The position numbers were made by a program, and so were the translations under genes. From Chloroflexota bacterium (GTDB lineage Bacteria > Chloroflexota > Dormibacteria > Dormibacterales > Dormibacteraceae): DNA of 64,000 bases. Where the stretch lies: the NCBI GenBank assembly GCA_005883575.1, contig VBFH01000005.1:1-64000 (forward strand). The letters are read 5' to 3'. Within the stretch, counting starts at the first letter, position 1; each line of letters starts with the position of its first letter. Below the pieces are notes generated by a model. That model made no database searches. It saw nothing but the letters and a program-made list of their open reading frames with translations, and was not told the DNA's origin. Of this stretch, positions 16,081 through 52,777 are shown piece after piece.

Positions 16081-17007
16081 ATGGGGGACCTCGACCTCGC
16101 CATTCGCGGCCGCACCTATCGCGAGCCGGAGGGGCAGCACTCAATGGTCGTGCGCGGCCGAGACCTCGACGCGGGGCTGCAGCACATCACGTCCCGCAGT
16201 GATTGCAGGTCGGTGGCGATCGTCGGCTTGCCCGAGCAGGTACCTGACCTTTCGCCGTTGATCGGACGCCGGCTTCTCCTCGTCGACGGTGACAGCGGCC
16301 GGCTGCGCGATTTCGCGGAGACGGCGATCCGCGCCGGCATCGAGGTGGAGTGGATCCGCTCCGCCCGACCTCCGTTCGAGCGCCTGGCCGCCGCGCTCCT
16401 TCCGGTCGGTGGCATCGTCCTCGCGGCGGGTCGGAGCTCACGCATGCCCGGCTCGCAAAAGCTGCTCCTCGACCTCGACGGCGTGCCTATGGTCCGCCAC
16501 GTCTTCGAGGCCGCGTCGGAAGGTGGCTGCCATCAGACCGTAGTCATCTATGCCGAGGACGACGTGAAGCGCGCGATCAACGGAAGGGCGGAGCTCGTCT
16601 ACAACGCCAAGGCGCACACGGGGATGGCGTCGTCGCTCCGTGCGGGCCTGAAGGCCATGCGCCCGGAGATCGAAGGCGCGGTGATCCTGCTGGGAGACCA
16701 GCCGCTCGTCGGCTCGCGCACCGTGGCTACGCTGCTACGGGCCTGGCGGCGGGAGGGCTCGCGCCCGGCCGTCGCAGTCTCCCAGGGCGCAGATGGTTGG
16801 GCGCCGCCGGTCGTGCTGTCGCGCGAGCTGTGGAGCCAGGTGCTCGCCCTCCGGGGTGACTCCGGCGCGCGCCAGGTGCTGCACGGCCGGCCCGAGCTGC
16901 TGGACATCGTGCCCGCCCCGGGGCGGCCGGACGACATCGACACGCCCGACGACTACGCCAAGATCGTGCGCCTGTTCCCCCGCAAGAAGCCGCGCCAGCA
17001 CGCCTAG
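16081..17007 (+). CDS. MocA-like molybdopterin cytidylyltransferase with extra N-terminal region
   Basis: Encodes about 308 residues. The C-terminal two thirds is an NTP-transferase of the MobA/MocA group: GGIVLAAGRSSRMPGSQKLLL at about residue 111, AVILLGDQPLVGSRTV, and DIDTPDDYAKI at the end. MocA adds CMP to molybdopterin to make the MCD cofactor used by CoxL-type hydroxylases, so its place just after the cox genes makes sense. The first ~110 residues (IRGRTYREPEGQHSMVVRG, VAIVGLPEQVPDLSPLIGRR) form a separate region I do not recognise; MocA normally starts at the LAAG motif. ATG 16081 is the start taken; the frame is open upstream, antisense to nfo. Confidence 0.78.
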   Translation: MGDLDLAIRGRTYREPEGQHSMVVRGRDLDAGLQHITSRSDCRSVAIVGLPEQVPDLSPLIGRRLLLVDGDSGRLRDFAETAIRAGIEVEWIRSARPPFERLAAALLPVGGIVLAAGRSSRMPGSQKLLLDLDGVPMVRHVFEAASEGGCHQTVVIYAEDDVKRAINGRAELVYNAKAHTGMASSLRAGLKAMRPEIEGAVILLGDQPLVGSRTVATLLRAWRREGSRPAVAVSQGADGWAPPVVLSRELWSQVLALRGDSGARQVLHGRPELLDIVPAPGRPDDIDTPDDYAKIVRLFPRKKPRQHA

Positions 17008-43450: not shown

Positions 43451-44413
43451 TTGCATCTGGTCATCGGGGCGGGCGAGTTCCTCGGCACGCACGTCACTCG
43501 CGCGCTCGCCTCCGAGGTTCCGGTCATCGAGCTCAACGCCGACGCCGACGACGAAACGGTGAGCGACGCCATCAGCGGCGTTGAGGTGGTTGTCTTCTGC
43601 GCGGAGACCAGCTCACCCGCTCGACGGCTCCGTCATCGCAAGCGCCCTCCAGCCGCGCTGGCGCGCGTCGTCGACGCCGCGCGCCGGGCACGTGTTCGCC
43701 GGTTCGTGCATGTGTCTACCGCCGACGTTTTCGGCCCGGACCACTTCGAGCGCGTCACCGAGAAATCCGCGGTCAGACCCGCACATGCCTACGAGCGAAT
43801 CAAGCTCTTCGAGGAGGAGTGGCTGCTCGATGCCGCCGATGAGCTCGAGGTGGTGATCATGCGTCCCGCCCGCGTCTTCGGGGACGGGGAGGCCTGGATC
43901 CTGCCGCGCCTCATGGCTGCGGTGGTCCGTGGAAGGGTCTGGCTGCCGGGCGGTGGACGAGCAAAGCAGACCTTCGTCTCCGCCGAGGACGTCGGCCGGG
44001 CCTGCCTCGCGGCATCCGACCGCGGCCGGCCGGGTCACCGCTACCTGGTCGGGGGATTCGACTCCACTTGGCATGACTTCGTGATTTCGGCGGCTCGTGC
44101 AGCCGGCGTTGCGGCGGACATCGGCTCGATCCCGTACGACCTGGCTTACCTGCGCGCGCTCGGGGTTGAAACCCTCACCGCACCGGGCGCCGCGCCCTGG
44201 CCGGGCGTCCTCGCCATCGACGTCCTCGGCAAGCCTCACTACTACGACGACTCTTACTCCCGTCGCGAGCTGACATGGTCGCCATCAGTCGGCAGCTTCG
44301 AGCAGGAGATGCCGGCGATGACGCGATGGCTGACGCAGCTCCCCGCTGTGTCGGCGGCGCTGACCCGAGCGACTTTGGAGGCTACTTCACCGCCAAGCAG
44401 GTTATCGTTTTAA
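43451..44413 (+). CDS. NAD-dependent epimerase/dehydratase (extended SDR)
   Basis: Encodes 320 residues. The nucleotide motif LVIGAGEFLG lies at the N terminus, FVHVSTADVFGP in the middle, the catalytic YxxxK as YERIK, then IMRPARVFGDGE and TFVSAEDVGRACLAA. These fit atypical extended SDRs (epimerase/3-beta-HSD-like). Substrate unknown. TTG start 12 nt after plsC. The last 32 nt overlap the opposing RAM gene. Confidence 0.83.
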   Translation: MHLVIGAGEFLGTHVTRALASEVPVIELNADADDETVSDAISGVEVVVFCAETSSPARRLRHRKRPPAALARVVDAARRARVRRFVHVSTADVFGPDHFERVTEKSAVRPAHAYERIKLFEEEWLLDAADELEVVIMRPARVFGDGEAWILPRLMAAVVRGRVWLPGGGRAKQTFVSAEDVGRACLAASDRGRPGHRYLVGGFDSTWHDFVISAARAAGVAADIGSIPYDLAYLRALGVETLTAPGAAPWPGVLAIDVLGKPHYYDDSYSRRELTWSPSVGSFEQEMPAMTRWLTQLPAVSAALTRATLEATSPPSRLSF

Positions 44414-44609
44414 AGACGCCGTCGATCTTCTGGATCTTGTCGACGATCAAAGAGCCGATGGAGTTCACGTCGGGGGCCTCGCAGACCGCGATCACGTCGT
44501 ACTCACCTGTGATGGCGTCGGCGGCGGAGATGCCCTGCACGCCTTCCATCTTCTTGGCCACCTCCAGGGCGCGCCCGGGCGACGCATTGATGAGGACGTA
44601 GGCCTTCAT
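44382..44609 (-). CDS. Stand-alone AsnC/Lrp ligand-binding (RAM) domain protein
   Basis: Encodes 75 residues: MKAYVLINASPGRALEVAKKM, GEYDVIAVCEAPDVNSIGSLIV, GVFKTITCLAVK. This is the RAM/AsnC_trans_reg domain without a DNA-binding half. Such stand-alone RAM proteins bind amino acids or similar ligands and may modulate Lrp-type regulators. It starts 64 nt beyond the tandem-repeat array, which on the reverse strand forms its upstream region. Confidence 0.85.
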   Translation of the reverse strand: MKAYVLINASPGRALEVAKKMEGVQGISAADAITGEYDVIAVCEAPDVNSIGSLIVDKIQKIDGVFKTITCLAVK

Positions 44610-44673
44610 CGTCTCAACCCCCCAAACTCGTGGACCGGAACCGCCTCAGCGTACTCGCGTTCCGAATTTCTTA

Positions 44674-45180
44674 CTAGCGGGACTTTGGCGGCCGGGTTCA
44701 TCCCGGCCGCGACCATGCTTCCCGGTCTCCAGGAGGTCGCATTGCTGGGCTACTTGATTGAGTGAAACCGTATACGGAATGGGAGCAGCGCCTGCGGCGA
44801 AGCCGCACGCGCGATGAGGGAAAACCATCAGGGTTTTCCTACCAGCGTGACTTTGGCGGCCGGGTTCATCCCGGCCGCGACCATGCTTCTCGGTCTCCAG
44901 GACCTCGCATTGCTCGGGCTACTTGATTAAGTCAAACCGTATACCGGAATGGGAGCAGCGCCTGCGGCGAAGCCGCACGCGCGATGAGGGAAAACCATCA
45001 GGGTTTTCCTGCCAGCGTGACTTTGGCGGCCGGGTTCATCCCGGCCGCGACCATGCTTCTCGGTCTCCAGGACGTCGCATTGCTCGGGCTACTTGATTAA
45101 GTCAAACCGTATACCGGAATGGGAGCAGCGCCTGCGGCGAAGCCGCACGCGCGATGAGGGAAAACCATCAGGGTTTTCCC
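44674..45180. repeat. Three tandem 168-170 bp hairpin-rich repeats
   Basis: Units span 44674-44841 (168 bp), 44842-45011 (170) and 45012-45180 (169). Units 2 and 3 differ at only about two positions; unit 1 is more diverged. Each holds a perfect 9-bp stem GCGGCCGGG/CCCGGCCGC with a TTCAT loop (e.g. 44688-44710), a TGCGGC-GAA-GCCGCA hairpin (e.g. 44793-44807), a CCGTATAC-type near-palindrome, and a closing GGAAAACC-ATCAG-GGTTTTCC hairpin (44819-44839, 44989-45009). Read on the reverse strand each carries a short ATG frame ending ...NPAAKVTL. The array fills the gap between two reverse-strand genes. It could be a structured RNA, a protein-binding array or a multiplied terminator; nothing known is matched. 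Confidence 0.9.
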
Positions 45181-45183
45181 TCA
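45155..45183. terminator. Hairpin containing the stop codon of the 54-aa gene
   Basis: TGAGGGAAAACC (45155-45166) pairs perfectly over 12 bp with GGTTTTCCCTCA (45172-45183) around ATCAG. On the reverse strand the gene's TGA (45168-45170) lies in the loop. The stem combines GC and A/T runs but lacks a trailing T-tract, so it is an atypical terminator. Shorter copies close the other repeat units. Confidence 0.55.
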
Positions 45184-45332
45184 TATTTCTTGCGGCTCTT
45201 GTCGGCAAGGTGCTGGGCGAGCTTCTTGAGCCCAGGGTTGACTGACACCACCTTCGGTCCCCGCACCTTCTTGTCCCGCGCCTTGACGCGTGCGCTCTCC
45301 CGCGGGGCGACGCGGTCCAGCTCGTCCGTCAT
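45168..45332 (-). CDS. Small basic protein (54 aa)
   Basis: ATG 45332 opens 54 codons: MTDELDRVAPRESARVKARD, KKVRGPKVVSVNPGLKKLAQHL, ADKSRKKYEGKP. It is very Lys/Arg-rich, helical and soluble, perhaps nucleic-acid or ribosome associated. The start overlaps the stop of the membrane protein gene in an ATGA, and its stop lies inside the third repeat unit. No family is recognised. Confidence 0.6.
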   Translation of the reverse strand: MTDELDRVAPRESARVKARDKKVRGPKVVSVNPGLKKLAQHLADKSRKKYEGKP

Positions 45333-50456: not shown

Positions 50457-51770
50457 GTGGCTGACGAGGAGAAGTTCGACGCGGTCGTCGTCGGCGCGGG
50501 TCCAGCGGGCAGCGCTGCCGCGATCACGATGGCAAAGGCCGGGCTACAGGTCGCTTTGCTCGAGCGCGGCGCGAAGCCAGGCGCCAAGAACGTCATGGGC
50601 GGCATCCTCTACAACCACTACCTCGAAGAGATCCTAGGCGAGGATTGGAAGCAGGCTCCGCTCGAGCGCCCGATCATCGAGGAGCGGCGCTGGCTGATGA
50701 CCGCGGAGGCCGCCATCGGCCTCGACTACAAGAACCTGCGCAACCGCGCTCACCCGCACTCCTACTCGGTGCTGCGCGCGCGCTTCGATCCCTGGTTTGC
50801 GGAACAGGCCGAGAAGGCGGGCGCGATGGTCGTCCCGGAGACGGTGGTCGACCGCTTGATCGTGAAGGACGGCCGCGTGGTCGGGGTCGGAACCGGGCGC
50901 GGCGACGACCTCCAGGCCGAGGTGACGATCGTGTGCGAGGGAATCGGTCTGGGCACGGGCTTGCTCGAGAGCACCGTCATCAACGGCAGGCCGCTCCGGC
51001 GCAACCTGCGCGCGGACGAGGTCGCCATGGCGGTCAAGGAGATCATGCAGCTCGATTCAGGGTTGATCGAGGAACGCTTCAACTGCGAGCCGGGCGAAGG
51101 GTGCACCATCGAATGCTTCGGCGACTCGACAATGGGGATGTCGGGCTTCATGTTCATCTACACGAACCGCGACACGCTCTCCGTCGGAGGTGGCGCGCTG
51201 CTGAGCGAGTTCAACAAGACCCTGCGCACGCCGAACGATCTGATGGAGCACTTCAAGCAGCATCCCGCGGTCAAGCCACTGCTGCGCGGGGCCGAGACGG
51301 TGGAATACCTGGCCCACTTGATTCCGGAGGGCGGCTATCGGGGCATCCCGAAAGTGTTCGGACCGGGTTATCTCGTGTGCGGCGACGCCGCGATGCTCTC
51401 CAATCCCGTGCACCGCGAGGGTTCGAACCTCGCGATGGAGTCAGGGCGGCTCGCCGGTGAGACGGTGGTCCGCGCCAAAGAGGCCGGCGACTTCTCCGAG
51501 CGAAAGCTGGCCGAGTACCGGGGGCGGCTCGACCACTCGTGGATCATGGCCGACATGAAGAAGTACGACAAAGCCGTCCCACTGCTGGAGCACAACCCAC
51601 AGCTCCTTTCGAAGTACCCCCAGGTCGCGGACCGCTCCCTCGACGAGTTCTTCCGCGTCGACGGAACGTCGAAATGGGATAAGCAAAAAAAGATCATGCG
51701 GATGCTGCGCAAAGAAGGATTGTTCCGGATGGGATGGGACACCTTCAAGTCAGTGTGGGCGATGAAGTGA
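50457..51770 (+). CDS. fixC: FixC/ETF-quinone oxidoreductase-like flavoprotein
   Basis: Encodes 437 residues from GTG 50457. FAD motif FDAVVVGAGPAGSAAAITMAKAGLQVALLERG, GGILYNHYLEEI, SYSVLRARFDPWFAEQAEKAGA, VAMAVKEIMQLDSGLIEERF, LIPEGGYRGIPKVFGPGYLVCGDAAMLSNP follow the FixC pattern. FixC moves electrons from an electron-transfer flavoprotein toward quinone or nitrogenase. No fixA, fixB or ferredoxin-like fixX is adjacent, so the partner must be elsewhere. A stop-overlapping GTG couples it to the next hydrolase. Confidence 0.85.
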   Translation: MADEEKFDAVVVGAGPAGSAAAITMAKAGLQVALLERGAKPGAKNVMGGILYNHYLEEILGEDWKQAPLERPIIEERRWLMTAEAAIGLDYKNLRNRAHPHSYSVLRARFDPWFAEQAEKAGAMVVPETVVDRLIVKDGRVVGVGTGRGDDLQAEVTIVCEGIGLGTGLLESTVINGRPLRRNLRADEVAMAVKEIMQLDSGLIEERFNCEPGEGCTIECFGDSTMGMSGFMFIYTNRDTLSVGGGALLSEFNKTLRTPNDLMEHFKQHPAVKPLLRGAETVEYLAHLIPEGGYRGIPKVFGPGYLVCGDAAMLSNPVHREGSNLAMESGRLAGETVVRAKEAGDFSERKLAEYRGRLDHSWIMADMKKYDKAVPLLEHNPQLLSKYPQVADRSLDEFFRVDGTSKWDKQKKIMRMLRKEGLFRMGWDTFKSVWAMK

Positions 51771-52777
51771 AATCCCTCCAGAGGACCGAAGACGGTGTCG
51801 TATTCGAAGACGGTTTGCTCGAGCTCAGCGACGGTCGGGAGATGGCGTGGCGTTGGTGGGGCGATCCGGACGGCAAGCCAGTTTTCCGCATCCAGGGCAC
51901 CCCGAGCTCGCGCCTGCAGCGGAACCCCGACGCCTCGGTGCAGCGGAACCTGGGCGTCCGGTTCCTGATGGCGGACCGGCCGGGCTATGGCGGTTCGACG
52001 CGAAAGCCAGGGCGCGGGATCGCTGACATCGCCGATGACTACGCCCAGCTTCTCGACGCGCATGGCCTCGACCGTGTGCCGGCGATGGGCACGAGCGGCG
52101 GAGGGCCGCACGTGCTTGCCCTGGCGGCCAGGCATCCGGACCGCGTTCCGGCCGCAACCGTGGTCGTGGGCGGGACACCGCTGCAGGGCGACGAGGTCGC
52201 GCGACTGGTCGGGGTGAACGCGCGAGGCTACGCCCTGGCGGAGGAACATCCGGACCGCGTTCCGGCCGCAACCGTGGTCGTGGGCGGGACACCGCTGCAG
52301 GGCGACGAGGTCGCGCGACTGGTCGGGGTGAACGCGCGAGGCTACGCCCTGGCGGAGGAAGGGTGGGAGCCGCTGCACGAGTTCCTGGTTGAGATTCGCG
52401 AGCGCCTGGTCGGCGACGAGGGCATGCAGGGCGTGCTGAGCGACGCCCCCGCGAGCGACCGGGCGATCATGACGGACCCGCTGTGGCAGCGAATGTCGCG
52501 CGAGAACATCGCCGAGACGCTCCGGCAGGGCGCCGAAGGTTGGACCGATGAATCCCTGGCCATGCACCGGGAGTGGGACTTCGACCCCGCCGACGTGAAG
52601 AGCTCGGTGACTTGGTGGCACGGCGATGACGACATGAACGCACCCCTGTCCGCGGCGCGACGCATCGTCGCGAGGCTGCCCGGAGTCGACCTGCGGGTGT
52701 GGCACGACGAGGGCCACTTCGCGTCACTCATCCATGACCGAGAGATCGTCGCGGAGCTTCTCTCGCGGTCGAGCTGA
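51767..52777 (+). CDS. Alpha/beta hydrolase with internal 38-residue tandem duplication
   Basis: Encodes 336 residues from GTG 51767 (overlapping the fixC TGA). Features: FRIQGTPSSRLQRNP, MADRPGYGGSTRKPGRG, nucleophile MGTSGGGPHVLALAARHP, WWHGDDDMNAPLSAARR (acid) and VWHDEGHFASLI (His). Immediately after the nucleophile helix a 38-residue block (HPDRVPAATVVVGGTPLQ to ALAEE) occurs twice in direct succession, identical at DNA level. The duplication sits at the strand after the nucleophile elbow and probably disturbs the fold. Without it the protein would be about 298 residues, the usual size. Confidence 0.82.
   Translation: MKSLQRTEDGVVFEDGLLELSDGREMAWRWWGDPDGKPVFRIQGTPSSRLQRNPDASVQRNLGVRFLMADRPGYGGSTRKPGRGIADIADDYAQLLDAHGLDRVPAMGTSGGGPHVLALAARHPDRVPAATVVVGGTPLQGDEVARLVGVNARGYALAEEHPDRVPAATVVVGGTPLQGDEVARLVGVNARGYALAEEGWEPLHEFLVEIRERLVGDEGMQGVLSDAPASDRAIMTDPLWQRMSRENIAETLRQGAEGWTDESLAMHREWDFDPADVKSSVTWWHGDDDMNAPLSAARRIVARLPGVDLRVWHDEGHFASLIHDREIVAELLSRSS
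52133..52360 (+). repeat. Perfect 114-bp tandem duplication inside the hydrolase gene
   Basis: 52133-52246 and 52247-52360 appear identical base for base (114 bp, 38 codons) and keep the reading frame. Zero divergence points to a very recent event or an assembly artefact. The two copies begin CATCCGGACCGC and end GCGGAGGAA. Confidence 0.95.

Follow-up and report, generated by a model that had tools for sequence, protein, structure and literature searches.

Three palindromic units lie in tandem at the 3′ end of a 54-aa gene

In the stretch of 64,000 nucleotides analysed here (the window), three head-to-tail units of 167-175 bp lie between a conserved 54-aa gene and a downstream RAM-domain gene, both read from the minus strand. 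The features of the locus, in descending coordinates and thus in the direction of the 54-aa gene, are as follows.

45168-45332, minus strand: conserved 54-aa gene, the final codons (YEGKP) and stop of which come from the element
45185-45191, plus strand: ATTTCTT, candidate 7-bp target-site duplication, adjoining unit 3
44673-45184, minus strand (that of the 54-aa gene, P4 end first): whole tandem array of three units, delimited by the flanking 7-bp repeat
45010-45184, minus strand: unit 3, the sole unit with a full 13-bp P4, adjoining the 54-aa gene (110 bits)
45154-45184, unstranded: P4 of unit 3 (ATGAGGGAAAACC/GGTTTTCCCTCAT, 13 bp), which forms the stop-codon end of the element
45128-45152, unstranded: P3 of unit 3, 4+6 bp flanking a conserved C-C mismatch, with a GAA cap
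45105-45127, unstranded: near-invariant core ACCGTATACCGGAANGNGAGCAG of unit 3, adjoining P3
45026-45048, unstranded: P1 of unit 3, 9 bp
44840-45009, minus strand: unit 2, 99% identical to unit 3
44958-44982, unstranded: P3 of unit 2
44856-44878, unstranded: P1 of unit 2
44673-44839, minus strand: unit 1, diverged, with a core that is short by one base
44788-44812, unstranded: P3 of unit 1
44688-44710, unstranded: P1 of unit 1
44666-44672, plus strand: ATTTCTT, candidate target-site duplication, adjoining unit 1
44646-44672, minus strand: putative original 3′ end of the 54-aa gene, now displaced, an in-frame FGTRVR-stop after the repeated AAGAAAT (assigned by eye and from orthologue tails)
44382-44609, minus strand: RAM/AsnC ligand-binding-domain gene, 75 aa, downstream

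Each unit carries, in plus-strand order, P1, a variable spacer, a conserved core, P3 and P4. The first-pass annotation had described three tandem units of ~170 bp with three hairpins each, and this was confirmed by Tandem Repeats Finder (a single 170-bp array at 44667-45179, 3.0 copies, 96% matches), by a repeat search of the window and by folding. The repeat search also bore out the near identity of units 2 and 3 (99% over 170 nt) and the divergence of unit 1, which is concentrated in the P1 half (~92% over 83 nt; the other half is 100% identical over 65 nt). The P1 stem (9 bp, GCGGCCGGG/CCCGGCCGC) and the GAA-capped hairpin, which unit 1 had been said to retain, are present in all three units, and the 13-bp P4 is complete in unit 3 only, its outer 5 bp being missing at both internal junctions. 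Folding of a single unit relative to dinucleotide shuffles gave z-scores of -4.5 and -4.8 as RNA (two strands) and -5.8 as DNA, and none of 200 shuffles folded as well as one unit. The array boundaries were set at 44673-45184 because the flanking 7-bp repeat marks both ends; the earlier placement at 44674-45183 was right as to the site and one base off at each end. The array had also been described as separating the 54-aa and RAM-domain genes, and it does lie between them, but the 54-aa gene ends inside it, with its stop codon (minus strand) at 45168-45170.

In the window, the 54-aa protein ends in ...LADKSRKK-YEGKP, with P4 encoding both the final five residues and the stop; its orthologues have a Lys/Arg-rich tail. 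AAGAAAT flanks the array on both sides, and past the array the frame runs on as FGTRVR-stop. In relatives, the 54-aa and RAM-domain genes lie 40-50 bp apart at five loci (L225, L226 and L232 by script, L228 and L230 by eye), and at loci outside those five the RAM-domain neighbour is different or was not found beside the 54-aa orthologue. Homologues of the 319-aa neighbour gene, many of them distant, were found at 27 further loci, none of which carries the element. Judged from these sequences, the window locus looks as would be expected if the array had inserted into the last codons of the 54-aa gene and duplicated 7 bp.

The units belong to a dispersed family restricted to one bacterial family

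The units are members of a dispersed, multi-copy family. With the array as query, 13 places were matched in its own genome, some of them overlapping or partial, and a DNA-similarity search gave matches in 25 of 41 genomes. An alignment of 36 copies was made, and a covariance model of the P4-P3-core part (R1) was built from 31 sequences. R1 matched 14 places in the own genome, and of 110 genomes from the class 32 gave one match or more, all 32 from one family of Candidatus Dormibacterota; the match in one of the 32 (G019) is a weak remnant, and 10 genomes of the element-bearing family gave no match. When R1 was run on 251 genomes drawn from the phylum, 8 were positive, all from the same family. 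Exact-pattern matches that carry names were, among the matches listed, mostly from Candidatus Dormibacterota or 'Chloroflexi CF_' MAGs, and most of those outside the phylum fail R1. The mean element length is 171 bp over 46 copies.

Two contigs with other labels, L126 ('Myxococcales', palsa_1153) and L087 ('Dehalococcoidia', fen_1078), carry the element and pass R1. The flanks of L126 are common to L055, and L087 has alignments of 0.9-1.4 kb with Dormibacterota loci at 72-79%; by these flanks both are probably Dormibacterota contigs that were mislabelled or misbinned. A pattern scan of viral contigs picked out a single stretch (L182) that was not confirmed by R1, and blastn found nothing in phage or plasmid collections. 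Rfam had no match for the element at the gathering threshold and, at permissive thresholds, only sub-threshold, implausible hits, and no account of Dormibacterota repeats was found in the literature searched. The first-pass annotation had taken the unit for a multi-copy, structured sequence of no known RNA class, in agreement with the genome matches, the Rfam result and the strong covariation of the copies described below. Absence elsewhere and a lack of covariation, which it had named as grounds for rejection, are both contradicted by these results.

The P4 end of the element abuts stop codons

The element is polar: in most copies, its P4 end falls between -4 and +6 bp relative to a stop codon. 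With a simple purpose-made gene caller, most copies were found to have an opposite-strand gene that ends at the P4 end. Of 50 loci, a set in which tandem copies were collapsed and L204:6702 (called inside an ORF) was excluded, 32 had the P4 end within -6 to +8 bp of a stop codon, compared with 11.5 ± 2.3 loci (maximum 20 in 5000 draws) when placement and orientation were randomised within the same gaps, and 5 had the P1 end there; the 50 loci are not fully independent because they come mostly from three genomes and five represent the same PII site in different species. Among 109 unique copies, an ORF ended near P4 in 82, and at -4 to +6 in 69, with +4 the commonest distance. At -4, the stop codon is the TGA within the element's own ATGAG. 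Some copies come instead after a short hairpin plus T's or after a terminator-like T-run.

Orthologous sites are filled, empty or inverted

Relatives differ at one and the same intergenic site in whether the element is present and in which orientation. At the PII 3′ site, eight species of the genus (G000, G001, G003, G004, G005, G008, G013 and G014) carry the element in its usual orientation. G016 has an inverted copy, the copies of G009 and G002 are both inverted and truncated, only P4 fragments are left in G105, G019 and G100, and others lack it (one row of this survey was unreadable and one was ended by a contig). Several filled PII sites still have, downstream, a hairpin-type terminator resembling the one at empty sites. 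At the frr 3′ site, the element is present in G000, G005, G014, G010 and G098, variant in G101, truncated in G002 and reduced to remnants in G100 and G102, with 4 of 30 rows unreadable. Unrelated palindromic repeats were seen directly after the frr stop in L305, L306, L309, L311, L321 and L323. Different palindromes seem to share gene 3′ ends as landing sites.

Dispersal does not appear recent, because copies of the same genome have a mean identity of only 82%, and there are no near-identical dispersed copies. In 54 syntenic pairs, 437 of 3817 aligned letters differ in the hairpins, 101 of 1293 in the core and 595 of 2838 in the spacer; four of the closer pairs have 0-1 hairpin changes, and other pairs look replaced. 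Flanking matches of at least 5 nt were found at 9 of 43 single copies (4.2 expected) and of at least 6 nt at 3 (1.0 expected). Convincing target-site duplications are confined to the window (7 bp), L067 (8 bp) and the tandem L115 (13 bp), and a general target-site duplication signal, looked for twice among the copies, was not established.

Tandem copies are also found in L020, L021, L024, L203, L207 and L217. Tandem junctions elsewhere hold host DNA: L207 has a stop codon there, L203 the start of a gene and L115 the upstream CAGCGAAGCTGGT. L203 has a second three-unit array (16084-16586), the units of which take in approximately the first 37 bp of the apparent downstream gene. P1 lies at a fixed distance in most copies, with no ORF between core and P1, and a pattern search (1 mismatch) for P1 as a separate element end gave few hits, several genomes being at or below the reversed control.

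Hairpin pairing points to DNA palindromes

Standard pairs make up 98.7% of the pair cells in 31 copies, and both sides have changed in 10 of 23 pairs; neither value was reached by any of 500 shuffle controls. P3 and P4 in 125 unique copies comprise 2643 Watson-Crick, 22 GU, 13 CA and 20 other cells (GU 0.8%, CA 0.5%), whereas 18 tRNAs in the same loci, used as a yardstick, comprise 369 Watson-Crick, 26 GU and 0 CA (GU 6.6% of 395). GU is approximately 8-fold rarer in the element than in these tRNAs and little commoner than its mirror CA, and the excess of G-U intermediates on the transcribed strand expected of a selected RNA structure was not seen. Since GU is nearly absent and CA nearly as frequent, the pairing of the element appears to be kept mostly at the DNA level, and the covariation of the hairpins points to DNA palindromes rather than to a selected RNA fold. 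Strong covariation is by itself no proof of RNA, the pattern of this element being nearly wobble-free; template switching in replication is reported, in the accessible part of one source, to create and repair perfect stems (PMC8794818).

The variable core letter covaries with the sixth P4 pair, as 81 Watson-Crick and 6 GU combinations among 95 readable copies of 125 (30 were unreadable by the script). The GU cases fit the window's plus strand only and point the opposite way, toward RNA. In the window, this covariation joins 45122 with 45159 and 45179, and no drawn structure fully accounts for it.

Palindromes that pair almost purely by Watson-Crick rules, with 20 of 50 loci between convergent genes versus 5 of 50 between divergent genes, would also suit a BIME-like DNA-binding array, a site for a nucleoid protein or gyrase at gene 3′ ends that acts on supercoiling or transcription. 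We consider this unlikely, as no protein is known for it, and sister genera within the family lack the element, as do many orthologous sites, although binding and a mobile origin are not mutually exclusive.

A functional structured RNA under in-place selection, whether a 3′-UTR element, a terminator-like structure or the multi-copy small RNA suggested by the first-pass annotation, is distinctly improbable. Strong folding of both strands, the compensatory changes and the strand-specific G-U cases of the core-P4 covariation argue for it. A few close syntenic pairs, in which hairpins and core are almost unchanged and the spacer is 10-20% different (0-1 of 61-76 hairpin versus 6-12 of 56-59 spacer changes in some), would suit function in place; however, in-place selection is not relied on here because these clean pairs were picked post hoc and others differ more, and blockwise. 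The near-absence of G-U that sets the element apart from tRNAs, its polar placement at gene 3′ ends, its patchy presence and inversion at orthologous sites, the native terminator that persists beside it at PII, the lack of an Rfam hit and the lack of a clear U-tract after the hairpins among the copies inspected all speak against such an RNA.

A non-autonomous mobile element as the probable origin

The units probably constitute a family of small (~170 bp), non-autonomous palindromic mobile elements that land at gene 3′ ends, with the array in the window as a local amplification. Insertion into or just after gene ends, dispersal, polarity and local amplification are documented by the loci described above. 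The element has three internal palindromes (P4, P3 and P1), a conserved core and no coding capacity for its own movement. The family is new and lies in a poorly known phylum; its broad kind, the bacterial miniature non-autonomous elements, is already known, and many dispersed copies per genome, empty and filled orthologous sites and the lack of mobility coding place the element there. Several results count against a mobile element: clean target-site duplications are not general, near-identical dispersed copies are missing, no autonomous partner was found, and in a few close syntenic pairs the hairpins and core are almost unchanged.

A trans-acting enzyme would recognise the palindromes as DNA, in the form of a folded single strand, a cruciform or dyads, and place the copies with a preference for gene 3′ ends. 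In the window, the element is inserted at the 54-aa gene's 3′ end and now supplies its last five residues and stop, and the three units would have arisen later through local tandem duplication, because the internal junctions are without the outer P4 arm. Transcription of the upstream gene would take in an element in place, as part of the 3′ UTR or as an intercistronic region, with possible effects on mRNA stability or coupling. It is doubtful that the element is actively directed to gene 3′ ends by a non-Y1 enzyme that sets one defined end a few bases from stop codons, perhaps guided by short pairing between the core (GNG) and the terminal palindrome (CNC), which covary among the copies.

A REP/BIME or IS200/IS605-derived element mobilised by a Y1 (RAYT-type) transposase is very improbable. 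Hairpins with conserved adjacent single-stranded letters, the location at gene 3′ ends and the guide-like short covariation next to P3 are consistent with one, but PF01797 was found in only 1 of 42 genomes of the family, the element-free G094, and the units measure ~170 bp as opposed to the 20-40 bp given for REPs in the accessible part of PMC3733652. None of the 32 element-bearing genomes has a Y1 transposase, which rules it out as the mobiliser for the present genomes. G094 (L283-L293), the sole Y1-bearing genome of the family, has eleven Y1 matches. An assembly artefact is a scarcely credible source of the three copies, for although these are MAG contigs and the contig of one relative (L266) is broken at the element, with others starting or ending nearby, unit 1 is clearly distinct from units 2 and 3 and tandem copies occur in other genomes too.

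Among known mobile elements, the closest description appears to be that of YPAL/RU-2, the Yersinia palindromic sequence, a resemblance by description only and not a membership, drawn from the accessible part of PMC2229807. YPAL/RU-2 is ~168 bp long, intergenic and not A+T-rich, has internal inverted repeats and no TA termini, and has targets that span or adjoin dyads, with target duplications of 3-26 bp (PMC2229807). The present element is alike in length, in its internal rather than terminal inverted repeats, in having no TA ends, in being intergenic and not A+T-rich, and in targets spanning or adjoining dyads; it differs in its three separate hairpins, its polar abutment to stop codons, the apparent lack of consistent 3-26 bp target duplications and its phylum. 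ERIC/IRU/RU-1, Correia/NEMIS and RUP are likewise small, non-autonomous and intergenic, and some of them fold in RNA or fuse to reading frames, but they have terminal inverted repeats and 5′-TA ends, according to the same part of PMC2229807, and the element has neither. No terminal inverted repeats were found at the element ends inspected, and the element is therefore not classed as a classical MITE. With REP/BIME (REPINs) it shares the character of extragenic palindromes and possible protein sites, as far as the accessible part of PMC2817692 describes them.

The findings provide a further interspersed-repeat family, from a poorly known phylum, a filled/empty pair in which insertion rewrites a protein C-terminus, and a sharp preference for stop codons. 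Elsewhere in the window, an exact 114-bp tandem duplication (52133-52360; 2.0 copies, 100%) lies inside the called gene 51734-52777, the reading frame of which is kept because 114 bp corresponds to 38 codons.
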